The notes under the pieces: model-generated | What the model was told of the DNA's origin: nothing | Database searches by the model: none | Seen by the model: the letters and a program-made list of their open reading frames with translations, nothing else | NCBI RefSeq assembly: GCF_019649055.1 | Contig: NW_026570221.1 | Location: 1,860,001-1,924,000 of the forward strand | Length of the DNA: 64,000 nucleotides | From: Paramacrobiotus metropolitanus | Taxonomy: Eukaryota; Tardigrada; Eutardigrada; Parachela; Macrobiotidae | Direction: 5' to 3' | Part shown: in pieces, positions 3,670-64,000 of the stretch | How the letters are laid out: each line of letters begins with the position of its first letter | Numbering within the stretch: position 1 is the stretch's first letter | Position numbers and translations under genes: made by a program

Positions 3670-3729
3670 CGGTGTTGTGAAGAATCCGTCCGCACTGTTA
3701 GGCCTTGGCGCATTTGTTGCGTCAAAGAC

Positions 3730-19532: not shown

Positions 19533-19580
19533 ATATAGATATTTATGATATACAGTACTGTATATCATAAATATCTATAT
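19533..19580. repeat. 48-bp perfect palindrome without spacer
   Basis: Centred between 19556 and 19557 in cagt|actg, 24 bases on each side pair exactly. The outer arm is AT-rich (atatagatatttatgata). There is no loop. Such sequences can extrude as cruciforms or arise by end-to-end duplication. Confidence 0.9.
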
Positions 19581-19596
19581 TATATAAGATTAGATA

Positions 19597-19642
19597 TCAA
19601 ATTCATGCGTACTTACACTAGTGTAAGTACGCATGAATTTGA
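19597..19642. repeat. 46-bp perfect palindrome without spacer
   Basis: Centred between 19619 and 19620 in cact|agtg, 23 bases on each side pair exactly, including cattcatgcgta-like arm sequence of mixed composition. It lies 16 bp after the previous palindrome and shares no sequence with it. Confidence 0.9.
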
Positions 19643-20340
19643 GTTGCATGTGCGGTAGCAGTGAGTTGTTTACGTATGCAAATATTGTTACTGAGCGGTA
19701 ATACTCTGACGACATAAAAATAACTCATGCTATACAGCACAAAACGGTGGCAACCGTAAAGCGCTTGAATGAATTCAATTCCTGCTGCCACAATTATCAT
19801 AAAAATTCAATATCATTTCACTCATTTCAAAATTATCCATATCTATGCGGAAGTTTATACCCAATTCTTAATTAAAGCTGCCGTTTCCAAGTTTCAAGGT
19901 CATCTTCAAAGGGGTTGGCTAGCTACTCTATGGTTTGTGGCAACTATCCTGAGTGGATGTATTCGAAAACAAAAATTATGTGACGCAGTAACTGAACCAC
20001 GGTCGATTTAAGTGTGATATCAGTTTCTTTTGAAAATGTGCGTTGTGGTTAACCAATATGGTCTCAGAACTAAAACTCTACCGGTACCACTATATGTTCC
20101 AAATTTTTTTTCCCCGTATATGTTAGTATGATTTTATGTTTGTCGCATTGTGCATGCTTATCGGCTTATTGGTTAGTAAGAGATTACAAACAAGTAGAAG
20201 CAAAACTGCTCAATCTAAGAATCTGAAAGCCGGTTAATAAGACGGTGAACGTTTTATTTCCGGTGGCTTTTTTAACAGAAGATTAACTTTACGGAAAAGG
20301 AGCTGAATTTCATGTAGTTAACTTACATAGTTAAGTGTAC

Positions 20341-21470: not shown

Positions 21471-22260
21471 TTTGCCAGTTTAGTTAGCAAGTAAAACGTA
21501 TAAGCAGTACTTTAGTGCAATGCCAGGATTACTTTAAGTACACTGTAGTGCACGTAGAAGTACAAATATCTATACTAATAGCAAAAATGTTGTGTGTGGC
21601 ACAATTGATCATATACTGCTAAGTTTTTTGGAACACGGGAATTAACTTACTCATAACCATGCCGAAGGCCTGTCAAATCAAAGTTGAAGCAAGAACCTCT
21701 AGCTGACATTTATTACATATTTGTTGTTGACTGAAGATCACTCTTTGATGAACCGGTGATGCATTATTGGAGACGAGAGAAATTATACATTATTACATTC
21801 AACGTTATGATCCTGCAAGCAAACTGAATGAAGTAATGATCTGGCGTTAATTTTTAGGTTGAAAGCTTGAACTTTAATTGCATCACGGGAATGGGAGGTG
21901 CCAGCATTAAAGGCAATAGTTTCAAATGTTGAAGACATGCATCATCATAAATATTCCTTGTTTGTGTTCGTATCAGTTGTATAATTGTCAGTGCCGGATG
22001 TCAATGATCAAAATACCCACGTTCAAATCACGTACAATGTGTCACCAAGGATCGTATATTCAAAACCCTTCAGGTGGATATAACTGCCTATGAGATCGAG
22101 TTCGTCTGTCATTAATAATGTCGTTCAATATATGTCTCGCCAATAAGAACAAGCAAGTAAACAGAGATCAGCATTTGGCCACGATGGTGCCAGAGGCCTC
22201 CGTGTCCAAATGAAGGAAAAAATGCATCACGAAACAAAAACTATGACTTTGAGCTGATAC
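21471..22260. other. Intergenic between the GPCR and a candidate small gene
   Basis: Upstream region of the GPCR; AT-rich with no ORF, repeat or RNA gene that I can support. Confidence 0.3.
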
Positions 22261-35439: not shown

Positions 35440-38400
35440 GGCACAGCCGCCGGGAAGCAGCACACTCTGCTGTGCGTGTAGTCAACGTCCGCGTTTTCAA
35501 CAGCCGCACACTCGGATATCTACAGAAACAGCCGAAAAACAATAAGTTCCCCATAAATCCCGGGGTTTATGCGGCACGCAGCAGCACTTTAATTGATCCG
35601 AAAGTATTCATAGGATCACGCGGTGCCTATTCGGAAAACACAACAACCGGCACATTAACTGCAGGTTCTTATGCGTTTTTAAGAGCATTCGCTTCTTTAC
35701 ATGGTTCCGCTTAGTGTTATAGCGTTCCCAGATTTTTTGTTTACACAGATATCACTCTTCGTGACGGCGCGTATCACATCATTACGGCAAATTAGACAAC
35801 GTGCTGATGCTTACTTCTCCCGTGTTATTGGACAGAAAAATGATACTGCTTCACCGGCTCGCGCGCACTAATGGGAAGCGCGCCGCGTGTTGACGGGAGA
35901 TCATATTCTATGCAACAGTGTCACATTTCACGCGGATTGCTCCTTCACAGCAGACATCGGCTCATTATGCGACCGCGAACAGGGGGACAGGAATTATGCA
36001 CTGACAGTTTAATTTCACACGTAGCGCTTCCACAACAAACCATCTCCCAGTGGCCGCTCAATAATTTAAAGAGGAAAATTAATTCATCAAGCGGTATACG
36101 TAGGCAACACGTGACCCGCAATGTTCATTCAGTCATCTGTTTGCAAACGTATTCATTTATTCATAAGGTCCAGTGTACATACAACCAGTAACAATGCCGG
36201 TTACATGATTATAGCCTGTATGTGCATATATATAAGTATGTCTGTGTAATGATCAGCAGCAGAATTATATGCCGTATATATACACGCCGGTCAAATGTAA
36301 TCATTTATTCGTGCTGTGAAATGCATTTAGTATAGATCTGAAATTCACTCAAGAGATGTCTCCCGAGTATTTTATCTGGCAGGGCATTGCGCGAATCATT
36401 TCCATACAGGACCATTCACATGCAAATGCTCTGGCCGCAGCTCAAAATCAAGAACATTCAGTATCCCCGGCATTTCATCCTTAATTATGTGCGCTGTTTA
36501 TTGACCTATTCCTTGTCATGTCCTCTTCGGCCCAACTACAACTCCTTGAGACGCACACTATATGGGACTCGTGGTGTATGGCATCATATTCACGATCCTT
36601 CAACGCGCCGTGTGCGCTAATAGTAGCCAACTTTGTATGCCATTGTTGCGTGTATATACATGTATCCCCTTCGCATCCAGGAAAGAGGCAATATTTCTTC
36701 CCATTTTCCCTGCACAAGTCACAACTATATATGACAATTCTATGCGCTCTGGCGCGATTGTCTGCTGCTGTACAGCGCAGTGTTCTCTGGAGTTTTTGGG
36801 CGATGAGTAATTGGAGAGGCCATTAAATTAATTTAATTTGCCCGGCTTTCTGTCAAAATAAAGTATGTAAGGAGAAATGTCGGAGCACTGCAGCTCAGAT
36901 CGATACACGACGACTGTATATGTCCGTATAGCGCCATGCACATAGATATACAGTCATCAATTTTTTCCCCTTCCTGTATCCCTTCTTGCACCCCAATTTC
37001 CAGGCCTTCAATAAAATTTATGATGCTGTGGAGATGTACGGCACACACACTACAAGAGATAAACAGGGAAAATGTGTATACTGCGTAGGCGCATGCATTA
37101 TCGATAGATTGGAGAATCCATTTCACTGATATATCGATGTGACGCGCAATCCAGCGCTACTAATGCGCTTTTCTCCGAACACGTATATACATACACGTTC
37201 TCCCAACACAAACGATTCAGGGATCGGCGAAATCCTTGAGGACGGGGAACAGAAAACAATATAATATGGAGACATAGATAAAGCCGGTATAATATATTGT
37301 TTAATTATTAAGTGGATGTAACAAGCAGATAACTAGGGGATTTGGCCAACGAGGCCAAATACCCCATGTCAGCTGTCGGCGGCTGCTGGCTGGCTGCTGC
37401 TGTGTGGGTGCGTGTGCGCATCGGAGACGGTGTTAGTGATATATTAGACTTTCAATTGAGCTCTTCCTATAATCCCTCTAGCGCATTATTGATTTATATC
37501 AACCGTTTCCGTGTTTGCTTAAGCTGTGATTTTACACAGTAATCAGTTGTTTAATTATCATCAAACAGACCTCAGCGCTTCTGAGGCACATAATCAGTGC
37601 ACACAGGAAGGAAAGAAGTCATAAAAAACCAAATCAAGTTGTACAAAGTTTGTTTCGATAGAGCGGTATGTGATAACCATACTACGTCGACAGCCAGTAA
37701 ATACTGAAGCAATAAGTTCGAATTTATTAGAAGTTTAAGCAGTTAACTTGTATTGTATTTATTTCCGAGAGACGTCTATAATTAATAGTTTTTTAACCAG
37801 AAAAACCGCAAAATTAGGACAATTTTACCCACAAAGGGCAAGTTCCTGCCAATAAAAATTACCTGTATATTATAGCGTTATTTTACGAAACGACAAAAAT
37901 ATTTAGTAATGCTATGCACGTTTACTATAAGCAATTATTGTCATATCGTTATTCGCATATTGTTATACAAACAAAACTTATATAACACTACGCCAACGTT
38001 TTACGATTCCTACAACATCGTTCAGCGCTAAATGTCCATGCGTAACCCATTCCTTACCCCAGAAGTGAATTATTCTGGCCGAAAACGGTGCAGCCTACAA
38101 ATCAGCAATTCCCCGGCTCTTAGCGGACAGCACTCAGCCAGTAATTCCCCATTCCAGATTAAAGGCCAATAATCTGCCTGTAAAGCACACTGCTGACACG
38201 CCAAAGCATTCCCGTTCACTCCGGCATTTTAATCCAGTAGACGACGAAGCCCGGTACTATATCCCAGCATGATTGTCAAGAGAGAATTGTCAGGGATGCG
38301 TTATGCTGCAGCTGCATACCAAACTAACCCGGTGCCGTGCGAATCACTCCCTCTCTTCCCAACTATTAAGCGTTAAAGGGGAAAAATATCACAACACCAG

Positions 38401-45684: not shown

Positions 45685-47174
45685 ATGCCTAAAATCGGCG
45701 GTTTTTCACTGCAGCCAATCAAAAGCAGCGATACCGATACAGCTAGAAAATCGACAGTTCAAAGAGAATGGGACGTCTGGCTGGTGACCTTGCAGATACT
45801 TGGTATTTCTGTGTACCCTTTGAATAGAGGCGGAAAAAAGCGAAATTTCCTGGTCAATGTTCTCACCATTATCTCGGGTACTCTGCAGATATTGGCTCTT
45901 AGCTATTGTGCATATAACGAATATTATTCATTGATTATTCCAGGCATCTCGTTTACGGCAGGTACGTTACATTTCGCCCTGTTTGCTACATCAGTCGCTG
46001 TGCCGCTTTATTGTTTTACTGCGTTTCTTTTCAACAACAACCTAAGTACTGCCATTAGAATGATGGCAGAAAGGGCAGACAAATTGCTAGCGAAAAGCGA
46101 CAAGTTAAAGCTGCATATTATTTTTGGGCTAATTTGGGTGTTAATCGGCGCCATGGCGATCCAAAACATTGTGAATGTGGACATCGGAGCATTCTATGAC
46201 GAGACTTTTTTGGGTGATTATTCTCGCGTGGAAGAATATTTATCTTTCAAAGTTTATCAGGTCTTCTACGTTTTTTACTGTGTTTTCTACCGAGCTGCTA
46301 ACATTACCATAATATTACTTCCCCACTTTACGCTATTCTTTGCCGTATTTTTGGGGATACAATTCCATCGAATCGCAACTAAGCTGGATGAGGAAGTGAA
46401 ACATCCAACAAACCGAAACACATTTTCGGAGCTTATTCAAGAACATCGGCGTTTGGGTGATCTATTAACCACATTTAATTCCGCTATGTCCATGATCAAT
46501 GCGTTGCTGTATATCGAGTGGTTGACTGTTATTATATTTTGTGTTTATATGATGGCGTCGACATACAAATCCGATAACAGTTTCGATCTCTATCATTTTC
46601 CACAGATCATTGAAAGTACTTTCATTCTGATCATATATGCTATTGGATGTATTTACGTCACCGAACAAGTAGGCGGCGCCGGTGTTTTCAACAATTTCCA
46701 GAAAGTGTTGAGTTTCATTCCGGTTAAAGTGAAGGTTCACTTGTAGATAAATTCATAAATTACAAAGATAAAGTTTACAAATTCATAAGTTTGAGACAAC
46801 CAATATTTCTGTTAATGTAGGCGTCGGCAGTAACCAGACTTTCATCCGGGCGGAACAAACTGCTGAAGCAGTTTATCGATACGTTGCGGCTGGATCCTGT
46901 GGGCCTCAAGATGGCGGGTATACTTGTGAACAGGGAAAACGTTATTGCCGTAAGAAAGAATCAAACAATCATCTTCAATTGCATTTGGGAGTTGCCAAAA
47001 TTTTTCGTCCACTGATATTAGGTTATTGGAGCCACTACTGGATACATTTTATTGTTCTCAGAAACCGCGGACGCGGAAAGGTCACCTCAATCGAATGATT
47101 TCCGTGCTCCGCTACCAGTACTGTTGATCAACAGCTCTCACAATTGTCAGTGTTTGTGTAACGCCACATTTTGA
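45685..47174 (+). CDS. Gustatory-receptor-like chemoreceptor, cluster gene 1, three exons, 421 aa
   Basis: Exons 45685-46668, 46821-46949 and 47022-47174 join in phase 0. About seven hydrophobic segments are visible: WLVTLQILGISVYPL, VLTIISGTLQILALSYCAYN, TLHFALFATSVAVPLYCFTA, IIFGLIWVLIGAMAIQNIV, FYVFYCVFYRAANITIILLP, LLYIEWLTVIIFCVYMMAS, and the segment split over the last intron, GLKMAGILVNRENVIA|VIGATTGYILLFSE. The last block corresponds to the insect receptor C-terminus (GxFxLxRxLLxxIxGAxxTYhhhhhQF). Insect gustatory receptors are ligand-gated channels with cytosolic N-termini (knowledge). Assignment to the 7tm_7 family is inferred from topology, the C-terminal motif and the small phase-0 exons at the 3' end. 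The ligand is unknown. The donor of intron 1 is GTAGGC. Confidence 0.65.
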
Positions 47175-48245
47175 CCACTGACACACGGTGCACGGAAACC
47201 ATGTTTAAGTTTTCCTTATGCAACAATATCATAGTAATTAACATTTTTATGGCAATGTGTAACTGTTTTCCGATCCCATCCTATTTTGATTAAATATTAT
47301 TCGAATACCAGCGTGACGGACCATGGCTATCTGTACTCTGGTTGAAATTCTGGGTTGCTGCGATGACCTTTGCAAATATTTTTCCTGAATAAAAAACAAA
47401 AATGCTAAAACAATAACCAGGGAAACAAGCGAACGTAGTAGCACCCATATTTACTGAGGTAAAATAGCATTTTGCCGTTATTTCGGAAATCACTCAAAGA
47501 CTTCGAAAATTACATTTCAGCAGAGATAGATATCCATCATTTTAACTGCTAAAGGTAAACAAACTGCATCTTTAACACCCATTGAATTATTTACCAAGGC
47601 GGTATTCGTGATAACCCGTCACAACGGTTCACAAGCAATGGCAATTTATTCGTTAAATTTATTCTTTAGAATGTTAATCATGATTGTTTGATTTCGCTAT
47701 TCGTTGTGTGACACTTCTTACGTCCTTTTTGTTTTCTTGAAGAATCCTGTCAGTCGACGAGATCGCTTGACCTGTCCACTTGTCAGAATTTTAGCTATAC
47801 GACCAATGAGGCAAAGCTGGGGACAGTAGGCAGCGGTGATATTTTAACTGTGGGCGTATCCGTATTGATAACTCAGTAACTCTGTCCCTGATGGTGTAGT
47901 GCCTGCCAAATTACACAGGAGTGGCCACCACAAACGAACCCGCGTTTGTTTGAAATCGCCCACACGAACTTCAAACACCTGCTTAACTAATGCATTGTAC
48001 GTAGTCAGATGACATCCCCACCCAACTCCCCACGGCAGATACGTATCATACAGATCACTCTGGCGCTGTCTTTCGTAGGGTAAATTCCGTTTCATAACAC
48101 AGTACATAATAACTGAATTTAACACAATATGATGTTGTTGATGGGAGTTGTGGATATCTGCAGGCTTTCCGAAGCGGCCCTGCACGCACAATGTAGTTTT
48201 AAAGGTTCTGGTAGTAAATACGATCACTGTAGACTATAGTCAAAA
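47175..48245. other. Spacer between receptor genes 1 and 2
   Basis: About 1.1 kb of AT-rich DNA. No coding sense; no repeat found. Confidence 0.4.
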
Positions 48246-49695
48246 ATGAAGTCACGCGCTCTTAAGCGGGTATGGACAGTCTGGTTGGTTGTCTTACAAA
48301 TGTGGGGATTCTTAGTTTTTCCGACCTCTTTTCCGGTATTGTGCCCGGTAAGACGTATTTTGTGCATCGTGGCTACGGTCACATTTGATGTCATGCAAGT
48401 GTTGGCGATGGCATGGTGCTGCTACAGTGAATTCTTGATGTCCATAACGCCGGATATATCGTTCACTGGCCTGACATTAACGCTGGCTTACCTCTCACTC
48501 GACACTATTGCCGCTTCGTACTGCTACTTGGTGTTTATCCAATCCAGTCAGACGCTCGCGATCTGGGTCGAATCAGTCATTTCGCAATCAGAGCACCTGA
48601 ATGCCAAAGACAAAGGGCAAATGTACGCGCTTATGCTGCTGAACGGCATTATTTTTGTGCTGTCGAGCGTGTACGTGATCACGACATACGACATTGGCTC
48701 GTTTTATAACGAGTACATGAAGAAGGACTATGACCATTTTGGCGCAGGTTTCATTTCATTTCAATCGTATAAGAGTGTTTACATCGTTTACTGTATTATA
48801 TACCGAATAGCATACTATGGAAAATCGGTTTTATCTTGCTTTGTGGTAGCATTTGCGGTGCTTTTGGGAAAATGCTTCTCTAAGGTCACGGACAAATTGG
48901 AATACGAAGTCGTTAAGCCAAAAAATTCCCGTAGCATATCGGTATTATTAGAAGAACATAGGCACCTGGCAAACATTACCAGATCGTTTGATTCAGTGAT
49001 GTGTTACTGCAATGCGCTTCTGTACCTGCAATTTCTGGCAATTATTGTTTATTCGGCGTACTGGATCGCGAGCCAGTTCAAGGGAACTGGGTATATCGAT
49101 ATCTATCAGTTTTGCACGTTAATAGAGACAGTTTATTACCTTACGTTATGCGCTTTTTCGTTTCTGTACCTCACGGAACAAGTAAGTTAACGGAGGAAGT
49201 ACAGTATTTTGCAAGGCCGACACTTCACTAAAAAGAACTATATGCATTTGTCGATCTACCCGTAGGCTTCTCGAATAATGAGGCTTGCCCAACCATGCAG
49301 CGGAGGAGTGCTGAAGCAATATGTTGACGCTTTTCAAATGAATTTGGTTGGCTTCACTACAGCCGGTCTTCCGGTAACTCGAGAATCCGTGGCAGTTGTA
49401 AGTCCTCGATTAAAACCAAATGAAGCAGCATACAATCAAAAGCAGAGCACAGCTTAGTAACATATAAGATAATCGGAAAGCGGTTTAAATTTGTAACCGC
49501 AGTCTGACTTATTTCTAGGGAGCCGGAGCTGTCACAAGCTACTTTCTGCTGTTCTCGGAACTAGCAGATAATGAAAATTCTCCCAAATGTGGGAGCTATC
49601 CTGCGGAGCACCAATGGAAGCAGGGTGTTATTAATACCACGACCTGCTGCCTGTGCAATCTGACAGACCAATTTAAAGGAGCGTTCGGAAAGTAA
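48246..49695 (+). CDS. Gustatory-receptor-like chemoreceptor, cluster gene 2, three exons, 414 aa
   Basis: Exons 48246-49181, 49266-49397 and 49519-49695, phase 0. The start MKSRALKRVWTVWLVVLQMW corresponds to the VWDVWLVTLQ block of gene 1 without its 25-residue N-terminal extension. Shared family signatures include WCCYSEF after the second helix, YDIGSFYNEYMKKDYDHF, VYIVYCIIYRIAYYGKSVLS, LLEEHRHLANITRSFDSVM and the exon 2/3 block LVGFTTAGLPVTRESVAV|GAGAVTSYFLLFSELADNE. The C-terminal tail has three close cysteines (TTTCCLCN), similar to the CLCN tail of other copies. The three upstream helices are more diverged than the C-terminal third, as in insect receptors. Confidence 0.65.
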
Positions 49696-50568
49696 CACTT
49701 TGATTTTTGCAGACGCAAAACTTTCGTATATACTCGAGACTGTATGTGTGGTTCTGCAGTCACACATTAACAACTGCATCAGCGGCTGAAATTATACTTG
49801 GGTATGTTGCAATTTGTTTGTAATTTGTAAATAACTCGATGATGTCTACCGTTTTCTCATGTGCCTTTGTGCTGCCTTAATACTGAAATACTATTAAATG
49901 GTATGAAATGTACATTTCACCGCGTAATGATTTGTCCAAGAAGTACGCTGCACTAATGATACTGCAGCATCAAGCAAACGCAGAAATGTTCAATGGATTG
50001 CTGCACACTTCACTTAGAGTCCACTTTATATCGTCTATGTGCAAAATGCGGCGATGACTTGAAACTTACACACGACTTGCGAAATTTATGCCACTTAACT
50101 CGACCGAAACTGTTTGTTCGTTTCGGGAGCTTAAATTAGCAGCGCTTCGGTTGATACGTAAATCGATATAGGCACGGCCGCCGAAGCGCTGTTAATTTGA
50201 GAAATTAGTTTTGAAAAAGATAATATCACACGCGGTCCCTTGTGCATTATGACACATTACCAAGGATTCCAATGTCTCTCTGGAGAAACCAAGGTGTTTA
50301 CTGGATCTACTATTTCATTCAAGCAAAAACGTCAATTACTACCTAGTACTTGGTACAAATGTTCCTACTACAACTCCTGGTGTCAACTATTATTTCGTTT
50401 CAACAAAAATCTGTGAAAAATCCAGTAGTCAGTACCTTCGGCAAGACTGAGTTTCGGGAACTACCGGCACACAGTATTGTACTGAATTGCTGCATTCCCG
50501 TTGGTTCTTTGGAAGGGCAGTACACCTAACAGGCAAATACTACGTATGCAGATACCGGTATCTACGTA
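49696..50568. other. Spacer between receptor genes 2 and 3
   Basis: About 870 bp, AT-rich, upstream region of gene 3. No other feature seen. Confidence 0.4.
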
Positions 50569-52000
50569 ATGCATAAAGTCGGCGCTTATACCGTTCCACC
50601 TCCGAAAAGTAGCGGCACCAGTATAGCTACGAAATTAGCAAGCCAAAGAGCATGGGACTTCTGGCTCGTGATCTTGCAGATTTTTGGTGTTTCCGTATAC
50701 CCCTTGGACAGCTGTGAGGCAAAACAAAAGTTCCTTGTTCGTTCTCTCACCGTTATGTCGGGTACTCTGCAAATGTTGTCTCTTTGCTATGCTGCACATA
50801 ACGAATATTATGCATTTATCACGCCGGGCATTTCGTTTACGGCAGGCACGCTGCATTGCGCCACGTTTGTGCTAGAAATCGCGGTGCCGCTGTGTTGTTT
50901 CGTTGTGTTTCATTTCAACAATGATCTGGGCAACGCTATTAGAACGATGGCAGTAAAGGCTGACGATTTGTTAACGAAAAGCGACAGGCGAAAGCTGCAT
51001 ATTATTTTTGGCTTGATTTGGGCGTTGGTCGGTGCTCTTACCGTGGACAACATTCCCAGCATTTTATGACGGGACTTTTCTGAACGATTATTCTCGCGTG
51101 GAACAGTACTTACCATTCAGAGTTTATCAGATCTTCTACGTATTCTACTGCGTTTTTTATAGAGCAGCTAGCACTACCGTAATATTACTTCCCCACTTTA
51201 CGCTATTTTTTGCCACGTTTCTGGGGAAAAAATTCCATCGACTCACGGCTAAACTGGTTGACGAAATGAAGAATTCCAAAAATCAAAAAACTTTATCGTT
51301 GCTTATTCAAGAACATCAGCGTTTGGTTGAAGTGTTAAACTCCTTTAATTCCGCTATGTCTTATATCAATGCGTTGCTATACGTCGAATTCTTAAATCTG
51401 ATTATGTTTGATGCTTATATGATGGCTTCGACATACAAAACCGAACATCGTTTGGATCTTTATTTTTTCCCACAACTTGTGGAGAGCGTATACATTCTTA
51501 CGATATACGCTTTTGGACATATTTACATCACTGAACAGGTAAGCATAAGGCATTCCTAACGCTTGACATGAACAATAGAATCAGATAAAGGTACATATTC
51601 ACTTGTGAATAACAGTTAGAATGTGAGGTAATCAAGCAGTTTCCATAAATGTGTCTGTAGGCGTCGGCCATAACCAGACTTTCATTCGCGTACAACAAGT
51701 TGTTGAAGCAGTACATAAAGATCTTACGAATGGATCCTGTGGGCCTTAAAATGGCGGGTGTGCTTGTGAACAGAGAAACCGTTATTGCGGTAAGCAAAAA
51801 CTCAGTAATCAACGAAGCGCTTTTTGTCTGTCGGAGTTTTTATTGTTTTTTAATTTGTAAATTTATTTCAGGCGGTTGAAGCAACCACTGGATACGTTCT
51901 GCTTTTTTCGGAAATAGCGGACGATGAAAGGCCACCCAAATCAAACAACTCTAGTGCGCAAAACAACATTTCGCTTTGTTTGTGTAACAGCACGTTGTAG
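50569..52000 (+). pseudogene. Gustatory-receptor-like gene 3, broken by a short deletion
   Basis: This is the closest relative of gene 1. Exon 1 spans 50569-51538, exon 2 51661-51789, exon 3 51872-52000. The N-terminal frame ends in LIWALVGALTVDN followed by a premature TGA at 51067-51069; from about 51055 the second frame continues AFYDGTFLNDYSRVEQYL to the exon end. Comparison with gene 1, which has 14 more bases between the fourth helix and AFYDE, shows that a deletion caused the shift. Downstream exons remain intact (DPVGLKMAGVLVNRETVIA|AVEATTGYVLLFSEIADDE, tail CLCNSTL), so the loss is recent or the reading is rescued in another allele. Two AATAAA words lie at 52064 and 52072. Confidence 0.75.
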
Positions 52001-52361
52001 TGCATGTAGTCCGTTTCGATGAAAGATGCACACTGAATATAAATGGCGTTCGCGCTCTGCGCAAATAAAAAAATAAATGTTAAAGTGGCATTTGCATGCA
52101 GGCGACAAATTTCTTCATGCCTTGCCTTTTAGCATTTCTTGTTTTGTTTGAATGTCAGCAAAACAGACTCTGGTTGTCATTAGTTTCCAGGATGCTTTTA
52201 CAGATAGGATGAACCTTTACTAATATTCTTCTCTGGTATAACTATGTTTTGCTAGGTGCATCAGGAGAAGTGAGATGTATTGATTTGAATAAAATTAAGA
52301 AAATAGACAACTGGCAAAACGGGGACAGAATCGTTTATATCAACTGACAAGTGAAGTGAGC
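52001..52361. other. Spacer between gene 3 and the minus-strand receptor-like gene
   Basis: 3' flanks of two converging genes; AATAAA on the plus strand at 52064-52069 and 52072-52077 is a likely polyadenylation signal for gene 3. Confidence 0.4.
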
Positions 52362-53936
52362 TCATATTACTGTATATACAAAGTATGTTAACGTTGTTGA
52401 ACAACTAAAGAAACCCGTTTCGCGGCAGAATAGTATTTGCAATTGTATTATAAAATTCCAGCAAAGAACCAGTTTGGCTGCCAGTGTATTCATTAGTAGT
52501 GGGCTCATTTTCTTTCCAGCCTTCCACGACATAGGGTCCATTCCATGCCTTCCCTTGCGAAAGAAATGCTGCAGTTCAAGCTGATAATTCTGAATGAAAC
52601 GCGATGCAGGCATGCACTCTGTGAAAATTAATGGTTTTCATAGGCAATGGTTTTTCGGTCTTTGCATAAACAGCATAGTGGTTGTTTTTACTTACCCGAA
52701 CAGTAATGTTAATGCTCAACTTACGCGCGCGTTCTTCCGACTTGCTTTCATGCCGTATTCGTACCAGGTTTTGACAGTCTAATCTCTAAAGTACGCAGAC
52801 GTGTCAGGACATGCATTTTAAAATTTAGAACGACTGCCTAAAAAGTAGTAAAAATGCATATCTGTTCGGCAGCCCATTCAGCGGAGATTACGATAGAAAT
52901 TACGAGACAGCCACAATATAATGGAAATGCGAGTAATCCGGCGATTTGCTTCCGAGTTGAGCTGTTGACCAACTTGACCTAAGTCCAGCGTTTGGGGTGC
53001 ACATACACCAGCAAATCAAAAACGCGCTTATCAACGAAACAACGGGCCAGCCAATAACCGCATTAGTGATGTCAAACAATTTCGCTATTTTACGCTCACT
53101 CCTTTCCATTTGTATGATTGGGTTGCCCGCATGAATTTTACTCTTGACATGTTGCCGCAGTTGTTGGGCGAAAAGATTGACAGTATAACCAAATCCGAAC
53201 AGGACGAGCGATAAAGCCGAGTGACGATCTGGACTAATACATCTACGAGTAATATGCTCCCTAAAGCGATTGTGGTTTGACATAATTGCTGCTGATGTAC
53301 CGTCGCGTTAAAAAAAAAGCAAAATTAAGTGGCATTCAAATTTCCTCGGCTCAACTACAATAATTTAATAAGCGTAACGAAGACATGTGCCAGAAACGAG
53401 ATAACCACATTAATGGCAACCCAACCCTTTGTCAACTGCACTTCGAAATGCCGACCTTTATCCAGTGAAATAACGAGTTGTTTCATGTAAACCGATGCAC
53501 TGATAAATTGTCGGCTATTCAGGGCAATGACGCCACACAGAACAACGAAATAGTTGCATTGAGCTGCGTTTCGGTATTGATGAATAAACACAAGAAACCA
53601 CTAAGGCATGGGATGAAGTCATTGTCCGGCGTTGCGGATGGTTGCAAGTTCACTCCATCCCAGCACCGTGGCGGGCGTTTGAAGGACAACGACCAGAAAC
53701 CAGCAGATAAATTGGAAAACACGTTGACGTACACGATTTAGCTTTTTACAGATGGCCATTACTCGTAGTGGGCCCAATACCGACCATAAGCCCAACAGAC
53801 AATAATAGCAAGTTTCAATTGCGACTAACGTAATGTTGCAATAATTCTCCGTCACACGATTTTTAATGTAAATATGTATGCACAAAAGTACGCAGTCAAG
53901 GACTGGCTGTTGCTGGATATCGAAATTGGGAAACAT
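52362..53936 (-). CDS. Divergent gustatory-receptor-like gene or pseudogene, model incomplete
   Basis: Four blocks with membrane-protein composition lie in the same order as receptor parts: 53619-53936 (begins MFPNFDIQQQPVLDCVLLCI; helices IETCYYCLLGLWSVLGPL and FICWFLVVVLQTPATVLGW), 53355-53591 (YFVVLCGVIALNSRQFISAS, VAINVVISFLAHVFVTLI), 52950-53283 (LFDITNAVIGWPVVSLISAF) and 52362-52579 (MDPMSWKAGKKMSPLLMNTL then AAKLVLCWNFIIQLQ). The last block resembles the insect C-terminus, with FIIQLQ at the TYhhhhhQF position. I could not join the first three blocks with both good splice sites and matching phase, so either the model is wrong or the gene is broken. It lies inside the cluster in the opposite orientation and is only distantly related to its neighbours. 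Confidence 0.45.
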
Positions 53937-54796
53937 CTGGTTTCACTGTACTTCCAGAAAACGTTTCCGATGAAGTAATTTTTTATGGAAGGGTGCGCTG
54001 GCTATTATTGCAGTTGTGTAAGTCGTTCAGGGTCATTCAAAGCACTGCATCATGTATGTCGTAACCTTTGCGGCTCGTGTACGTGGCTACGTGCCGACTG
54101 CTGAAAGAGAACCTACTTTTAATATGCAGCAGGTTTTAAACTAAGCATACATTTATGCCCAAATACCAATGCGCTACTGTATTTCCATAGTGAGGTGTAC
54201 ATGTGAGCCGGACATCGCGCGGTTTAAGAGGTGCAACTGCGTTGTAACTACTTCGGTATTTCTCATATTCCGGTCACTTTGAGTGAATGGTTTTATATTC
54301 CGGTCACCGGTCACTGGTACGACCGCACATGTTTCGCACTACATGAATATAGCTGCTGATCGCACAATCGCACAATAAAATGCGCGTGTTTACAGTGGGC
54401 TCGTGATAACTTGTTCATGTATACAAGTACCTCAACATTCTTCTTGTTACCCGCTGTAGATGCGTAGCCTGTGTTGTCCGCTTGTATGTAGGTTCTGCCA
54501 GTTGACGGAATGACATGATCTGTCACCTGTCAATTTGTCAGAATTCAGTACAAACAGTAGTATAATTAATGCATATACACGAGTAGACACTGGGCAAACT
54601 CGGAAACAAGAATCGCCAGCTAACAGTTGAAATGAGACTACGTGATAAACATACTTACGTGTATGATTGTATCAGTTGTATGGTAATATCCTTTCGTCAA
54701 TACTCTGACAATGAGTGCAGTGGTGGCTACGTTACAAAATAAAATGTTACGTGTAGACTTCTGAAAACCTTCTTGTCTTTCCCACCCCTATAAGCA
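53937..54796. other. Shared upstream region of the minus-strand gene and receptor gene 5
   Basis: About 860 bp between divergent genes. The word ttccggtcac is repeated near 54270-54310. No coding sequence seen. Confidence 0.35.
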
Positions 54797-56237
54797 ATGG
54801 AAGCGCTTATCTCTCGAATGTGGACAGTTTGGATGATTATTTTGCAAATGTTCGGATACTTGATGTGTCCTGTTTGCAGTCATCATGCAGTAAAGCGTCG
54901 GCTTTTTCAAATTTTCACTGTAATTTTTGACATTTTTCAAATTATGGCATTGAGTTATTGTTGCTACAATGAATTAGCCCAATCAGTACACCTATTTAGA
55001 TCTTTTTCCGCCTTGACTTTGTACATCATCACTTGGTTAACGGACCTTGCAGCCGCAAGTTATTATTTTATAACAATGTTTCGATCATGCGAGATTCTTG
55101 TGAAATGGATCAGGAGCGCAGCTGCGGAAGCCGACAAGTTACTAACGAAGCGAGCCAAGCTGACAGTCTGCATCTTCGTAGAAACACACCTCTTCATGGT
55201 CAGCTGCCTTTTAGCACATAAAATCATAAATACCGACATTGCTAGCTTCTCTACGTCATCGATAAACGACGACTATGCGCTTGTAAAAGATCTGTTTTCA
55301 ATGACGTCATACAGAAAGTTTTATGTGTTATATAGCGTCATATACCGGATCGTAGCCTTTAGTAAGTTGATACTGCGCGGCTTCATAGTATCATGCGCCA
55401 TGCTTATGGGAAAACAGTTTCAAATTCTCAATGAACAGCTTGAAGCAGAAAGTTCCATGTCGGTATCGGCATTTATTCAGAAACATCGCCAGCTTTCTGA
55501 CAGCACCAAGCTATTTGATTCTGCAATGTCCGGAGTTAACTGTCTGCTCTACGTCCAGCATTTGACTAACATCACTTATGGGACATTTATGATGGCCCAA
55601 AAATATAGGACAACTCAAAGCCTTGACATCTATCATTTTGTCGTAATAATGGAAAACCTGTGTTTTCTTGTAATAGTCGCGCTGGCCTTCGTATTTCTCA
55701 CCAAAGAGGCAAGTAACAACTCTAAGAGAAGAGTTTGAAACGAAACGAATGTTGTATTAAAAAAAGCGACAGTTACAGTTCATGAGAAACTTAAATTTTA
55801 TGCCTTTATGTCATAGGCGCGTCATATTGGCAAAGTTGACCACAAAGATCGTCCAGACCTGAAACAATATATAAAGCAACGTCGCCTGGATCCTGTTGGG
55901 TTCAGTATAGCCGGTTTGCTGGTAACTGGAGAAAGTGTGATTATTGTAAGAGCCGACAGCTTTTGTTTTTATGAGAAAAGAGAAAAAGTGTTGAAATATT
56001 CGCACTGTTTTTAAATTTAATTAACCATGCCAGTAATTACTGTGTATTGTAATTCTTATTCCGGCTACGCCTACACTGTAGGCAGCAGGTGCGATTTCAA
56101 GCTACATTCTACTGGTTTCGGAACTAGCGGACAACGAAGGTGGTTCAAATTGCGACGAAAAACTTTTCAAGCTCCAACAGGAAATGATGTCCCACAATGC
56201 GAAGTGCTGGAACGGCAGCTTTAGCGCATCCAGCTAA
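54797..56237 (+). CDS. Gustatory-receptor-like chemoreceptor, cluster gene 5, three exons, 398 aa
   Basis: Exons 54797-55708, 55817-55945 and 56082-56237, phase 0. The start is MEALISRMWTVWMIILQMFG. Family signatures: SYCCYNELAQSV, FSALTLYIITWLTDLAAASY, HKIINTDIASF, YRKFYVLYSVIYRIVAFSKL, FIQKHRQLSDSTKLFDSAMS and RLDPVGFSIAGLLVTGESVI|AAGAISSYILLVSELADNE. Intron 1 starts with GC, not GT (AAAGAG|GCAAGT); reading through it would add only nine codons before a stop. The last exon runs to TAA at 56235-56237. It is most similar to gene 8, which shares the GC donor at the same place. Confidence 0.65.
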
Positions 56238-58470
56238 CGTGGTTATAACATAATGCGGTCGTCTCCGTGTTCATCATGCCGTGACCTTGCATCCGGTTGC
56301 CCTGTACCAAAGGGACTCGTCGAACGACGTTGCCACAAGAATAACCCTTTAATTTTTAAGTGGGTGCTAACGTTTCCGTACTACATAGCGTATAAATTCG
56401 TTAGGCTGGCATACACAAAACGTTTTTGGACAAATAATCCCAAAAAAGCAGGCGGCTTTTTATGGATTGCCTCTGGTGGTCGCTTGTCAGCCGTGCTATT
56501 TCATAGTACAAGTGCTGCATATTTCTATGTCAAAACTAAAAATCGAGTCGTACGAGAAAAATATGGTATCTTTATAAAAACCGTTCAATAAGCCTGTCAA
56601 GATTAACCCATAGGCTTCAAGGCTTGTGTTAATGTGGTACATATTCAGCAGAACACTTTTATTAAAGTTCATAATAATTATATTGCATTACTACATAATA
56701 GACAATAGTTATTGTAAGTTGTAACCAGTACGTGTACACTTCCTGGCAAAAACCTGAAGAACTTTCCAAACACAAAGTCTCTGTGCATAATAAACTGTAT
56801 AGTACATACAGTTGAATAATACAAACGACTGCATAATAAACTGTATCGTTGTAGTTGTTAAAAACTGATTGCATACCGAAACAGGCATGGGAAAGTTCAG
56901 TAAACAGACATCACTTTTTGATTTGTCTATAGTCAGCAGATTAATCAAAACGCGAGACAAATCTCAGTATCCCATTTACGGTCCGAAGAATTTCCCGCAT
57001 GTTCCTTCCTTGTCCCCGTCTTTTTTGAAGAAACACTTTTCGTTTCCGGCATGGCAAGGCTTGCTCTTTGAGCATTTGGCGCCAATCTCTCTTTTATCCA
57101 GTCTTACGCTCGCAGCATTGCTTAACGCTGCTAACTACAAACATCAAAATCCTGTAAATTATCACGCCCGCGGCTGCAGAGAATGTCTGAGACAACTTCT
57201 GTTCAAAATTTCACGCTACCAGTACAATGTCATCCAAATGATGTTACTTTTTAAAAGGCTGTTGCAGCGATGCTCTTGCCTGTAATGCAGTATTCCTATA
57301 TTGAAAACTGCTTGATATTGATTGCCTCATATGGCTTGATATACTGCTTGGTATGCTGAGAAGCTAGAGCCAAAACACTATCGCATGTTATATGAAAATT
57401 AACACTTGCTGTTATTCTGAGTATGAACAACAATATGCGAATACAAGTAAGCTTACCGCAAAAAGAAGCGCACACACGAAGAATCCCGAGAAGGTGAAGA
57501 ACTTCATGGCGAACCGGCTGCTTGAAATTAGGTTTCTTCAAAACTGCAAACACTTCTTGAATTACAATACTGCAGCAAAATCTTTTATTGGTTTTTATTA
57601 TTTCAGTTATTCTGTTTTCAGTGTTGTGTTTATACCACAATATAATCTAAGTTTAAGACCAGAAGAAAAAAGCATACCGTATCAATCGAAACAGGCCAAT
57701 CTGGACGTTTGCTACCACTGTTGGACTGGCAAGTGCGTTGCTGTTGTGGCTTTATTTATTAGTTTGAAACCGGGAATTTCCCAAGCAAAGTCATATTTCA
57801 ATGAAACGTTGCAAAATACGGCTAAAATGAACCGGTTACGTGTATGTGGCCATAGCATCAACAAGAAGTACGACATAAAAGCACCGTTAAAAACAAACTA
57901 ATGAAAATGAACAAATATTTTCCAAACGAACGATTTCGTTGCGGCGTGCGTATGACTTCGCGAAGCGCGGTGCTTGACTACACAGCTGCATGTTCTCTGA
58001 TCAAAGCACAAAACGTCGATTTGATATCATAGAAAATTAATAATTTTAGGGTGTGTTGAACACATGAGTGTGTTTTTGGTTACCAATACTTATATTCTGT
58101 GTTGGCATTTGATGAGGTAATACGAGGTACAGTATCAGCGGTAAGAACTGCAATAACGCTCCGCCGTCAAAAACATAAGCTCAGTACTTTGTCATGACAG
58201 GAGTTTGGAGTTCGTGAAAGAAGAAAAATATGGGAGCTAATAAATTTGGTATTATTATTGCCTTTTAGCTGTCTTCGGCAATCGCAAAAACAATTATACT
58301 CAGGAAAGGACCATTTGCACAGGACTCCATAAATGTTCACATGATAAAAAGTAAAAAGTGGAACAAAGTTCGATGAAAGTACCAAATGGAGTAGTATAAT
58401 GGTGTCTTGTTCCATAAGGATGTCTTCACTAATAAGGTCCTTTAATCGCACGATCATTGCACAGTGATTA
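56238..58470. other. 2.2-kb stretch with one candidate small gene
   Basis: Apart from the candidate signal-peptide exon at 57457-57507, I see no coding sense. Longer plus-strand frames at 56869-57285 and 57392-57901 have random-looking composition and no splice context. I looked for a remnant receptor gene and did not find one. Confidence 0.35.
57457..57507 (-). CDS. Candidate signal-peptide exon of a small secreted product
   Basis: ATG 57505-57507 encodes MKFFTFSGFFVCALLFA and is followed directly by a strong donor GTAAGC. Seventeen residues with a lysine and then a hydrophobic run ending in small residues is a typical signal peptide that ends at an exon boundary. Possible phase-0 acceptors on the same strand are near 57365 (tctcag, giving a 19-residue basic peptide ending QFSI) and near 57290 (attacag), but I cannot choose between them. 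The gene could encode a short secreted peptide, or be a chance arrangement. Confidence 0.3.
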
Positions 58471-60092
58471 TCATAATGTAATATTACACAAACATTGAGA
58501 AACGTTGACAAATAAGATCTCCCGCGAAGAACTGGTGTCGTTTGCCTTGGGTAGTCGTTCATTGTCCGCTATTTCCGAGAACAACAGAATATAACCAGTG
58601 GAAGCCCCAATCGCCTAATAATGATTAATGAAAAACTTAAGCTTAAAATGCGGTTATAAGTTTTACCGTGCACATTATATATATCGCATTTAAATTAGTG
58701 CCACTGTCCCAGTTGAATACTCTGACTATGTTAAACTAACTTTTAAGAAAGGTCACATTTTTAGAAAGAAAGCATTAGGTAATGATATACGGTAAAACTG
58801 CGCCATTTTTGCTCACGGTAATAACAGTTTCCCGGGTCACAAGCACGCCCGCCATCTTGAGACCAACAGGATCCAATCGTTGCTTCTTAACGTACTGCTT
58901 CAGAGGTTTGAAATCATATCCGAACGCCAGGCGGGTTATAGCTGACGCCTAAGATTTTTTGAAAAATGTTGGTTACATTAAGCTTAAGGTAACTGGTAAT
59001 AAATTTATTACTAAACAATGCACATACACCTACAAGCTTTTACGTACTTTGTACTTTCATGCACTGCAAATTCATGTTGCTTGAGATGTTCTAGCCTTTA
59101 CAGGGTACTGAACTACTTACTTTTTCAGTGACGTAAATATGTCCAAATGCGTATATGATGAGCATATATACGCTTTCAACAAGTTGCGGGAAAGGTTCGA
59201 CATCCAAGATATGATAAGCTTTAAACCACGCTGCCATTAAGTAAGCATCGAACATAACGATGGTCAGCAACTAGATATAAAGCAGTGCACTGACCATCGA
59301 CATTGCGCAACTGAATGTGCGGACTGTATGAACCAGACCTTGATGCTCTTGTAGAAGTGACGCTATCGTTGTCCTGCTTCTGCTTTGACTCATTTCATGT
59401 GCAAGGTTGGCTGTGATTTGATTAAACTGCTTCCCCAGGGTGACAGCAAAGAATACGGTAAAATGCGTGAGCAGCACGGCGGTAACTTTTCCTACTCTGT
59501 AAAAGACGCAGTAGAAAGCGTACATGATTCTGTAAGTACTGAACGAAAAATAAAGCTTCACATGAGAATAATCATAATCAATGCTTCCGTCACAGAATGA
59601 TGGGATATCGACAGTAAAAATGTTCTGTAACGAAATGACCATTCCCATCACCAAAATCAGTCCGCACAGAATATGAAGTTCCAGTATGTCTCTTTTTCTC
59701 AATATGGCACCCGATTTTGCTGCCATTGACTTAATGGCCTTTCCCACATCGTTATTAAAATAAAAGGCAATAAAATAATACAGCGGCACTGATATTTCCA
59801 ACGCAAACAGGAAAAAATGCAGCGTGTTTGCCGTAAATGAAGTGTCCGTAGTGATCGTTTTGGGAAACTCGGCGTAAACACAATAGCCAATAGCCAGCAG
59901 TTGAAAAGCGCCTGACAAAATTGTGAGAACGCGGAAAAGAAAACTTCGTTTTACCCCCAGTTCGTCTAAAGGATATACGGAAATACCAAATAACTGCAAT
60001 GTCACCAGCCAGGCATCCCAGGATCTCTGGATTCCCGATGATCTCCCGATATCGCTGCTTTTCACTACGGTAAAAAAACCGACTTCTGGCAT
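58471..60092 (-). pseudogene. Gustatory-receptor-like gene 7 with an in-frame stop
   Basis: Exons in coding order: 59121-60092, 58817-58948, 58471-58614, phase 0, GT-AG. It starts MPEVGFFTVVKSSDIGRSSG and carries the gene 1-type features IQRSWDAWLVTLQLFGISVY, LHFFLFALEISVPLYYFIAF, AFYCVFYRVGKVTAVLLTHF and SLLQEHQGLVHTVRTFSCAM. A TAG at 59271-59273 follows SALLYI; genes 1 and 3 have GAG or GAA (E) here, so one base change explains it. The rest of exon 1 and exons 2-3 are undamaged (RLDPVGLKMAGVLVTRETVI|AIGASTGYILLFSEIADNE, tail CLCNITL). Thus the gene is a very young pseudogene, a null allele, or is read through. Confidence 0.75.
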
Positions 60093-60783
60093 GGCAAATA
60101 ATGCTGCGGCTCAATCAGATTACCGTTGATTCAGTGAACGCCAGATAAACGCCTTCTTGCAACCTGTTCTCACCAGCAACGTGAATGACCGTGGTTAACA
60201 AAGCAGAATGAACAACTTCAAGGTGTTATTCTGCTGACCTTTGCCCATAAGTTCTCTCATGCCAAAAGCGATTCTTCCGGATTAGACATATGCTCTATCT
60301 CGTGTTTACGTCAGCAATGAGTAATAAAAGACTTCATCATGACGGCTGTGACAGGCCGTATGCAAAACAAATAATTATATAATATGTATGTTGTTCAACT
60401 ACAGATACGTATACTTCGTTGACAACGTCAAAGCACGCATGTAAATAGATTAAGTGGAATAACCGCGGATTATCACACACCAGATTTTAAAAAAAACCAC
60501 AATTGACTCGCATCTAATATTTCGTACCGCTTTCCAGTTATAACCCGCCTTTTTACGTATACGAATTCTGACTTGTTAACTTCTGTTCTGACTTGTCAAG
60601 TGACTTCGTCGCCTGCCATAGTGCGAAAAAAGTTGACAGATGACACGGTACTCGCGGTGTATATCTTTTACAGGTCAAATACCGAATAGCAAAAACAGCA
60701 GATATATAAAAATGTGTTGTCAAAAACGCCAACTGCAAGTTAGGTCTTTGTCCTGATCCTCGGTTAGTAAACTGCGACTAACG
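60093..60783. promoter_or_regulatory. Shared upstream region of receptor genes 7 (-) and 8 (+)
   Basis: The start codons of the two divergent receptor genes are 691 bp apart, so both promoters lie here. No specific element could be recognised by eye. Confidence 0.35.
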
Positions 60784-62313
60784 ATGCTGCTACAAAAACT
60801 ATGGACGCTTTGGCTGCTCATTCTGCAGCTTTTTGGATTTTTTCTGTATCCATTTTGTAATATTCATGCAGTCACATACAGGTCCTGCCAAATCCTAACT
60901 GCCGCCTTTGACATGCTACAGGTTCTGGCTATATGTTATTGCTGTTACAACGAAATTCATCAGTCAATAGGATTTTTTAAATCATTTTCTGCGCTAGTGT
61001 TATACATTGGTAGCTGGTTGTTGGATATAGGCACCGCAGTGTATTCTTCCTGCATTTTCTTTCGATCAAGCAACGTTATTCAGCAGTGGGTCGAAACCGT
61101 TATAGCAGGTGCCGATAACTCCTTATCTATTCGCGCCAAGCTGGAAGTCCTGACTTTTGTGTGTGTTGACGTCTGTCTGATCATTCTTCTGCTGGTGCAT
61201 AAGATCATTAACGTCGACATTAATGCATTTGATGTATCTGTACACGAAGACTTTAAGTTGGTGCCAGTATATTCCTTCTCTTTCGCTATCTACAGAAAGC
61301 TATACGTTGGTTACTGTACGTTTTTTCGCATTGCCTATTTTAATAAGTTATTACTGCGAAGTTTTATCATCAGCTGTGCTATTCTTTTGGGGAAGCGTTT
61401 TTGTGTTTGGAATGAACAAATTACCAAAATTTTGGCAAATCCAAAGCATTCAAAGCCGGTATCGCTGCTGCTGGAAGAGCATCAGCATCTCGCTAATCTA
61501 ACAAAATCGTTCGATTCCGTTATGTCCGGCATTAATGGTTTGTTGTACTTCCAGTCTTTGGGAAACATGACGTACTCGATCTTTATAGTGGCTGGCCAAT
61601 ATAAGACATCCCAGACGCTGGATGTTTACTACTTTACCTCACTTGTCGAAAGTTTAAGCTGTCTTCTGGTAACGGCTTTTGCGTTCGTGTATCTGTCCCA
61701 AAAGGCAAGTTATGTCCAATATGTACCCTTACATCAACACTAAAACTTTCTCTTTCAAATTTTGATTTAGGCTTCTTGCACTGTAAAAGTCGACCACAAA
61801 GGTGACGCTGAGGTAAAACAGTATTCAGACCAACGAAGGACCGATCCTGTTGGATTCAGCATTTCAGGATTGTTAGTAACCCGGGACACCGTGACTGTTG
61901 TAAGCAAAATTATTACATAGTTGCAGACTAATATAGCAAAACTGAGTTATAGTTAGCGATTCGCTTTTGCGAAATTCCTACGCTTTTCTGGCAGAAAACA
62001 GCAAATAGCCTTTTGTTTTACTAACTTTTGGGGATTAGAAATTTATTACATTGCGCAATATTCTAAATAAATCAAATTGAACGGCAACTAATGCAACCTG
62101 ACGCTGTTTAATGTCTAGTGTAGAGTAGCTATATTTCTGTATTATTTGCAGGCAGCGGGTGCGATCTTGAGCTACATTCTGCTCTTTTCGGAGCTGGCCG
62201 AAAACGAAAGCAGTTTAACCTGCAACGCAAACGCGTCACTGCCGCAACAAGAGCTGACTTTATGTAACATTTCTCTGCTCTGTAACATCAGCACAAGCAC
62301 GAATTTCTACTAG
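60784..62313 (+). CDS. Gustatory-receptor-like chemoreceptor, cluster gene 8, three exons, 403 aa
   Basis: Exons 60784-61704, 61771-61899 and 62152-62313, phase 0. It begins MLLQKLWTLWLLILQLFGFF. Shared blocks: CYCCYNEIHQSIGFFKSFSA, HKIINVDINAFDVSVHEDF, YRKLYVGYCTFFRIAYFNKL, LLLEEHQHLANLTKSFDSVM and RTDPVGFSISGLLVTRDTVT|AAGAILSYILLFSELAENE. Intron 1 has a GC donor (CAAAAG|GCAAGT), as in gene 5; without splicing, a stop follows after 13 codons. The C-terminal tail is long and rich in N-x-S/T sequons (NANAS, CNIS, CNIST), which matters if that end is extracellular, as proposed for insect receptors of this type. It is the sister copy of gene 5. Confidence 0.65.
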
Positions 62314-63093
62314 CGAGTACAGTACGAGAACGGTTGTAGCGGAATGACAGCAATCGTTTTCATTCAGCATATAGTAGTGCAGTTTTGCACTGACGGTTCG
62401 CTGCTCTTTAAGTCGATCTCCGAAACGTGATATTACTGGTAATTCCTGCATTGGACATCCCGCCGATCCCGGCGGTCATTCACTTTTTTACGTCCGATCG
62501 TTCGCGATGTGATACCTGTCACCTATACAAATAGTATCGTTGAACAAGGGCTGTGCAAACAGCTACGCATTTCTGAAACAGTTTTAAAACTGTTATCGAC
62601 AAAGCTAGAAAGCATTAAACAGTAGCATTAACGTGGCTGCTGTTGTTTCCGCCTTTATTCAGACATAATTTGTATCTTGATCAGAATGCAGAGGGCATGT
62701 TAAAGGTCACTGTCACATACAACTTTCCAGTCGCTGTTGTACATATCGAGTGTTCAGAAGGGTTTTACGTTACGGATGTTTCCACCATACATTTTTAAGG
62801 AAATCGGCAATTCGATATTCCGTCACTTGCGCAAATTAAACATTGAGGAAAAGAAATAGCGTTTTTCCGGTTTTGTTGATCGTGTGACGCAAAATGGCAC
62901 ACTCGACATCGATATGGCACTTGCCGTGGGAAATGTGGTCGATAAGGACACAGATTAAGTTGGAACTTCGAATGAGTTACTAACAAAATTCTGTTGAATC
63001 TAGTCTTGTATTATTTTGTAAACACTGCCTTTTTTTCTTCAAAACGTCTGGGGAAGTATTCGTTTAAACGTTACATGACGAAGCTTTTCTAAA
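62314..63093. other. Spacer between receptor genes 8 and 9
   Basis: About 780 bp with no coding sense that I can support. Confidence 0.4.
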
Positions 63094-64000
63094 ATGCAGA
63101 TTACGATAAACGGATTTTGGAGCGCATGGCTTGTATCCTTACAACTATTTGGATTTTTCGTTTATCCCTCTAGCAGCAAAATATCAATAAAACAAATGGT
63201 CTTTAAATTTTTCACCATTATCAATAGTTTGCTACAAGTTGTAGCCTTGAGTTACTGCTGCTACAATGAATTTTCAAAATCCGTCAGAGCGTACGATAAA
63301 TCGTTTATTGCCGTAATGCTGTTCCTGACCACTTGGGTGTTGGATGTCATTGCGACTGCCTACTGTTTTTTTGCCATCTTCCAGTCGAGTGAAGTTATAA
63401 CTGCTTGCGTTCAAAAAGTTACCGCTCACGCTGATTGCTTTTTAGACAACAAAGCAAAATTAAAGATCTGTGTTTTCATTGGATTTAACCTCTTGACAAT
63501 CACTGCCACCTCGACATATAGAGCGATTTATTCGGATGCCGCTCCGTTTACCGCTAATATGCATGCAGATTATGCACTTATAAAAGCGTTGATTCCATTT
63601 CCCCAGTATAAAATTTTATATGTAGTGTACGCTATTCTGTACCGGATTGGGTGCGTCGGAGAATTAATCTTGACTAGTTTTACGGGGTGTTTTGCTGTCG
63701 TGATTGGAAAGCGCTTCACAGCAATCGCCGACATGCTTGAAAACGTAAAACAGCAGAAAAGTAAATGCTCTACCGAGGCTGTTCTGCAGGATCATAAAAA
63801 TCTTGCAGAACAGACCAAAGTATTCGATTCTGCAATGTCCACGGTTAATATTCTGCTGTATATTCGATCCTTGGCTGACGTTACGTACGCCATTTACAAC
63901 ATTGCCTTGGAGTATAAATTAACTCGCGACTTAAGCCTGGATGACTGCATATCACTGGTGGAGGATTTATACTTTTTAATGCTTTATGCTTGTACATTTG
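63094..64000 (+). CDS. Gustatory-receptor-like chemoreceptor, cluster gene 9, partial at window end
   Basis: An open frame of 302 codons starts at ATG 63094 (MQITINGFWSAWLVSLQLFG) and is still open at the last base. It shows the family pattern in order: WLVSLQLFGFFVYP, VVALSYCCYNEFSKSV, TTWVLDVIATAYCFFAIF, PQYKILYVVYAILYRIGCVG, LQDHKNLAEQTKVFDSAMST and the sixth helix region ending LMLYACTF. The two short 3' exons expected from its relatives lie outside the window. It belongs with the gene 2/5/8 subgroup, which lacks the N-terminal extension of genes 1, 3 and 7. Confidence 0.65.
   Translation, partial: MQITINGFWSAWLVSLQLFGFFVYPSSSKISIKQMVFKFFTIINSLLQVVALSYCCYNEFSKSVRAYDKSFIAVMLFLTTWVLDVIATAYCFFAIFQSSEVITACVQKVTAHADCFLDNKAKLKICVFIGFNLLTITATSTYRAIYSDAAPFTANMHADYALIKALIPFPQYKILYVVYAILYRIGCVGELILTSFTGCFAVVIGKRFTAIADMLENVKQQKSKCSTEAVLQDHKNLAEQTKVFDSAMSTVNILLYIRSLADVTYAIYNIALEYKLTRDLSLDDCISLVEDLYFLMLYACTF

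Follow-up and report, generated by a model that had tools for sequence, protein, structure and literature searches.

Seven similar genes lie at one end of a 64,000-nucleotide stretch of the genome of the tardigrade Paramacrobiotus metropolitanus (assembly GCF_019649055.1, contig NW_026570221.1, positions 1,860,001 to 1,924,000; this whole stretch is the window, and positions are counted from its first letter). Do these genes encode gustatory receptors (Grs) like those of insects, and what does their unusual C-terminal motif mean for such proteins? An earlier note, made from the letters alone, had taken them for a Gr-like cluster with a new form of the motif. Our analysis indicates that they are very probably Gr genes of the insect chemoreceptor superfamily, forming a lineage-specific subfamily whose products would be ligand-gated cation channels with a glutamate gate. 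Family membership, the gene plan, the fold of the first six transmembrane segments (S1-S6) and tails rich in N-glycosylation sequons are supported by computation; channel function is proposed by analogy with the insect receptors. As tardigrades stand beside arthropods and onychophorans, their Grs inform the origin of insect taste and smell receptors. Vizueta et al. (2020) reportedly included tardigrades in a survey. We found no report of tardigrade Grs among the titles and abstracts of the literature searched, nor in PMC5531438, which holds no chemoreceptor terms, or the available portion of PMC7738191; we do not claim priority.

Gene plan of the cluster

Reading both strands of 45685-64000 and testing the splice sites gave seven gene units, A-G, within about 19 kb, including the part of G beyond the window edge. 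As the earlier note had stated, all share a three-exon plan, with a large exon 1, a short exon 2 (43, 44, 43, 43, 44, 43 and 43 codons in A-G) and an exon carrying the seventh transmembrane helix (TM7). The exon joins of all models are predicted splice sites.

Gene A: 45685..47174, plus strand; exons 45685-46668, 46821-46949, 47022-47174; 421 residues
Gene B: 48246..49695, plus strand; exons 48246-49181, 49266-49397, 49519-49695; 414 residues
Gene C, broken: 50569..52000, plus strand; exons 50569-51538 (frame lost near 51036-51070), 51661-51789, 51872-52000
Gene D: 54797..56237, plus strand; exons 54797-55708 (GC-AG intron 1), 55817-55945, 56082-56237; 398 residues
Gene E, with one in-frame TAG in exon 1: 58471..60092, minus strand; exons 60092-59121, 58948-58817, 58614-58471
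Gene F: 60784..62313, plus strand; exons 60784-61704 (GC-AG intron 1), 61771-61899, 62152-62313; 403 residues
TM7 (S7b) pore-motif block of gene F, AAGAIL-SYILLFSEL: 62152..62196, plus strand; an equivalent block occurs in the other six genes
Gene G: 63094..64000, plus strand; exon 1 only in the window, complete in locus L008 beyond the edge; 404 residues

Five of the seven genes (A, B, D, F and G) are intact, with both introns in phase 0 and AG acceptors, and C and E could be read with the same exon layout. The intron 1 donors are GT except in D (window 55709) and F (window 61705), where they are GC (GCAAGT); these two genes also pair in a tree of exon 1 sequences with a support of 97. In gene C the frame is lost through an 18-nt deletion and a 4-nt insertion relative to A. 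Because E lies on the minus strand the array is not entirely head to tail, so that the earlier description of a tandem cluster holds for seven units in about 19 kb but needs qualifying for the orientation of E and for the broken state of C and E. Hydropathy gave transmembrane counts that varied from 7 to 9.

Evidence for membership in the gustatory receptor family

The position of the last intron ties these genes to the superfamily. In every one of the seven window genes, as in the ten models of the subfamily that splice cleanly to the same plan, exactly six codons separate a phase-0 intron from the TM7 motif downstream (in one model, C315a, the acceptor was chosen by its peptide). According to the Daphnia paper (PMC2680840), nearly all Daphnia Grs have a phase-0 intron six codons before the motif TYhhhhhQF, and most insect and nematode relatives share the trait. 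The earlier appeal to phase-0 introns as a mark of the superfamily is borne out in the intact genes.

Profile comparisons point the same way, thinly but consistently in the direct Pfam matches and strongly in an indirect link through paralogs. The best Pfam match was 7tm_7, 7tm_6 or Trehalose_recp in half of the ten spliced members, all under the cut-offs: 7tm_7 in three (best E = 1.9e-5), 7tm_6 in one (1.6e-5) and Trehalose_recp in gene A (2.4e-4; 20.3 bits against a cut-off of 21). Gene F matched 7tm_7 with E = 0.02 and 14.7 bits, and the member on contig C40 with 24.6 bits, against a cut-off of 26.6 bits. The Pfam check that had been proposed for the spliced proteins thus returned 7tm_7 in three of them, but never above the cut-off. 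Neither 7tm_1 nor Sr was among the Pfam matches listed for the ten members, while the rhodopsin-type G-protein-coupled receptor (GPCR) at 20.3-21.5 kb of the window does match. When a profile of 11 subfamily exon 1s was compared with one of 24 over-cut-off 7tm_7 paralogs from the same genome (one of which, L024, passes only with its neighbours, the remaining over-cut-off loci being left out), the match had a probability of 97.2 and an E-value of 3e-11 over 267 columns. Reversed profiles gave probabilities of 1.0 and 0.5, and the window GPCR piece 0.0-0.1.

An AlphaFold model was built from exon 1 of gene F with five window sequences; this single chain covers S1-S6, with TM7 outside the folded part. 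Two of its helices, 167-218 and 226-276, are very long, and we take them to be S4 and S5. Insect Grs and odorant receptors (Ors) filled ranks 1-19 of a Foldseek search (best E = 5.8e-3, probability 1.00) and all of the top 20 rows in VIA-align, with Z from 18.8 to 12.4, while the next, unrelated row stood at 7.4. Rows under Z 8 (HRD1, TTYH2, TMEM120 and others) were dismissed as helical-bundle background. The S1-S6 fold modelled from exon 1 is that of insect Grs and Ors, in line with the structural comparison that the note had proposed, and is shared with Orco (6c70; Z = 14.8) and MhOr5 (7lid; Z = 18.3) at a sequence identity of about 10%.

To place the cluster within the genome, protein F was used as a query, and about 17 subfamily loci were found: seven in the window, three on C63, two on C315, one each on C40, C52, C69 and C164, and a fragment at C1:1447888. 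Weak and distant hits, for example on C49, C44 and C8, are left out of this count. No subfamily member was among the loci listed downstream of gene G on C1. That seven of the 17 lie within the 19 kb of the cluster, in a genome of 169.8 Mb, is beyond chance. With E allowed up to 1, Pfam 7tm_7 itself picked out 58 other loci by 60 matches, none of them in the window; 32 of the matches were over the family cut-off (four of them only with neighbours in frame). These locus counts are lower bounds drawn from the best candidates, the weakest 7tm_7 matches may be due to chance, and the comparison covers one tardigrade genome, that of P. metropolitanus. In an exon-1 tree of 60 rows (11 from the subfamily, 46 from 7tm_7 places and three distant relatives) the subfamily formed one group with a Shimodaira-Hasegawa-like approximate likelihood ratio test (SH-aLRT) support of 99, its neighbours being loci L009-L011. 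The proposed lineage-specific expansion and the Gr-like identity are supported, the latter by fold, profile-profile match, intron position and tree together. Elsewhere in the subfamily, the C164 locus (L006, C164:231500-233500) is a broken copy that has the same exon 3 reading as the intact C40 gene (L001, C40:35700-37800), a sign of what was probably a recent duplication followed by decay.

The tails that follow the motif carry a further signal. In ten subfamily proteins they total 370 residues (32-43 each) and hold 19 N-x-S/T sequons, with at least one in every gene, against a mean of 7.6 after shuffling; none of 2000 shuffles reached 19. The rest of these proteins showed no enrichment (12 sequons, 15.9 expected by shuffling). 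The tails of other Grs in the genome behave likewise, with 40 sequons against 12.2 and again 0/2000 shuffles, in the 32 of 37 that were entered (four of the others filled the 45-residue limit and one had no printed sequence). Sequon-rich tails fit an extracellular C-terminus, the topology given for the family in the Daphnia paper (PMC2680840), and lend indirect support to an N-in, C-out arrangement, opposite to that of GPCRs.

Several observations weigh against assigning the cluster to the Grs. All ten spliced members stay below their Pfam cut-offs; D and G match DUF1218 instead (E = 0.0036 and 0.029, under the cut-off); and B, C52 and C315a have no noteworthy Pfam match. An hmmsearch of the PDB with the ten-protein profile A2 was empty at E up to 10, every Foldseek E-value was above 1e-3, and the exon-1 model is of moderate quality (predicted local distance difference test 66, predicted template modelling score 0.55). 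By the fold tool's own warning, a Z below about 13 may carry little meaning in the case of helical bundles, although 19 of the 20 Gr/Or rows exceed 13. The sister loci L009-L011 lack a 7tm_7 match. The genes might instead encode another multi-pass membrane family that merely resembles Grs, be it GPCR chemoreceptors, TTYH or TMEM120-like proteins, since the window members' Pfam matches are below cut-off, two of them weakly favor DUF1218, and long helical bundles match by chance, as TTYH2 and TMEM120 do at Z of about 7. We regard this as very improbable, given the clear gap in Z between the Gr/Or rows and the other rows listed, the profile match to the 7tm_7 paralogs when the window GPCR piece gave next to none, and an intron position and tails that fit a C-out protein, whereas GPCRs are C-in.

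Gr membership leaves room for two further readings. The proteins could have the Gr fold and no part in taste, as with Drosophila Grl or PHTF-type relatives among the seven-transmembrane ion channels (7TMICs), and serve in other parts of the body or during development; PMC9998090 describes superfamily members whose role is unresolved. The tandem expansion, the strong divergence seen in tree branch lengths and the pseudogenes resemble the birth-and-death evolution of chemoreceptors, which is suggestive only, and leads us to consider a non-taste role unlikely. That the cluster consists mostly of decaying relics with no present function is a good deal less probable still: the frame loss in C, the stop in E and a further relic at 52.7-54.1 kb speak for decay, yet five of the seven genes keep clean splice sites and an unbroken frame of about 400 codons. 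In the sole measurable pair, C52 and C69, both outside the window, the ratio of nonsynonymous to synonymous substitution rates (dN/dS) was 0.24, as under purifying selection; it was saturated in the four window-gene pairs tried.

The TM7 motif and a proposed glutamate gate

Since the intron lies six codons upstream of [SG]Y, the register of the motif is fixed, and the earlier placement of the block at the position of TYhhhhhQF is confirmed by this spacing. In register, TYhhhhhQF reads [SG]Y-hhhhS-E-[LIT]: T becomes S or G, Y is kept, the fifth h is S, Q becomes E, and F becomes L, I or T. The claim that QF is replaced by SE was thus one residue off. As for the consensus patterns put forward with it, DPVG(F/L)xxxGxLVxRE is exact in three of the seven genes, and GAxx(T/S)xYhLLFSE(L/I)AD, being too long by one position, matches none. 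All seven fit [GE]Axx[SG]Y[IVF]LL[FV]SE[LIT]A[DE], C and E being tested on exons 2 and 3 only. Across the 16 exon 3s of the subfamily, some of them identical, [SGR]YhhhhS[E/G][L/I/T/M] holds throughout; the strict letters of TYhhhhhQF are not kept, and glutamate fills the Q place in 15 of them and glycine in the other.

We then scanned the 58 7tm_7 loci with a scoring matrix that was blind to the Q and F positions, trained on earlier pattern finds and with the six-codon spacing imposed. From 36 loci came 37 exon 3s scoring at least 10, and the other 22 yielded none; in an opposite-strand control of 62 loci, one candidate reached 10 (12.4). At the Q place of these 37 we found E in 21, Q in 13, and D, G and S in one each, and at the F place I in 12, L in 8, M in 6, T in 4, A and V in 2 each, and F, P and S in 1 each. 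Most of the 37 depart from the strict motif, and several have SE itself, so the idea that the new form was peculiar to the window cluster was rejected. As E is common at the Q place beyond the subfamily, the Q-to-E change is wide in this genome; the exon-1 tree requires at least four changes between Q and E. One weak 7tm_7 locus (L068, C8:146000-148000) has a last exon, GYILIFSEL-AD, that resembles those of the window subfamily.

Compared with insect and Daphnia Grs (Pfam 7tm_7; BmGr9 and DmGr43a solved), the tardigrade proteins differ in the T, Q and F positions as above, in having three exons, the first of which encodes most of the protein, and in their 32-43-residue tails with sequons and cysteines, insect tails lying outside the comparison. 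Drosophila Gr36 and Gr59c/d, and likewise Grl36a and Grl43a, are described in PMC9998090 as having a variant of the motif in TM7 and a phase-0 intron ahead of the exon for that helix; there Y and the first h are changed and Q is kept, whereas here Y is kept and Q is changed.

What the change might do can be gauged from BmGr9. The structure paper on it (PMC11100771) assigns a hydroxyl ring to T436 and a lipid head-group contact to Y437; I440 and F444 make up the hydrophobic gate, and Q443 turns into the pore when the channel opens. Orco has L as its plug residue and MhOr5 has V, and changing the MhOr5 glutamine to A or R abolished agonist-driven calcium influx. When these places are mapped onto the window genes, the hydrophobic ones stay hydrophobic in all but gene A, which has T, and a glutamate takes the place of the gate glutamine that MhOr5 keeps. 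By analogy, each protein would be a subunit of a ligand-gated cation channel built as a tetramer, in which ligand binding in the S1-S6 bundle would move S7b. The hydrophobic plugs (I440 and F444 in BmGr9; here L and L/I/T) would withdraw, and the neighboring glutamate, at the place of Q443, would turn into the pore mouth, where the open channel may present a ring of carboxylates. Because the substitution falls on the very residue that turns into the BmGr9 pore on opening, a clear mutational test is possible.

More tentatively, much of the Gr repertoire of this animal may have this exchange at the gate, near-fixed in the window subfamily, with up to four carboxylates at the open mouth conferring divalent preference or pH sensitivity beside a probably glycosylated, often cysteine-bearing extracellular tail. 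We think this joint proposal possible and rather doubtful; if true, it would represent a distinct mode of permeation and gating within the chemoreceptor superfamily.

Neighboring sequence and other observations

Between C and D lies the further relic weighed above.

Degenerate Gr-like relic of another family: 52701..54150, minus strand; pieces 52903-53307 and 53622-53942

These pieces match frames on C224 and at C1:1574755 that stay open for about 300 codons. The relic has no 7tm_7 match of its own; one of its C224 relatives is a weak 7tm_7 match (C224:80489, E = 0.114). We considered it as a member of the window subfamily and rejected this, its relatives being on C224, C128, C48 and at C1:1574755.

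At 10475-21479 and 35137-35481 of the window, Pfam identified an XPB helicase, a prenyltransferase alpha subunit, a ubiquitin-conjugating enzyme, the rhodopsin-type GPCR and an arrestin exon. Long overlapping frames in 1-8600 appear retroelement-like by eye, and the piece 7310-8275 had no Pfam match. DEG/ENaC channels (PF00858) had no match in the genome, in an exon-by-exon search that does not establish their absence; Vizueta et al. (2020) are said not to have found them in eutardigrades. Chitin_bind_4 likewise drew no match, but since its control drew none either, this is not taken as absence. The trehalose synthase family is present in the genome.

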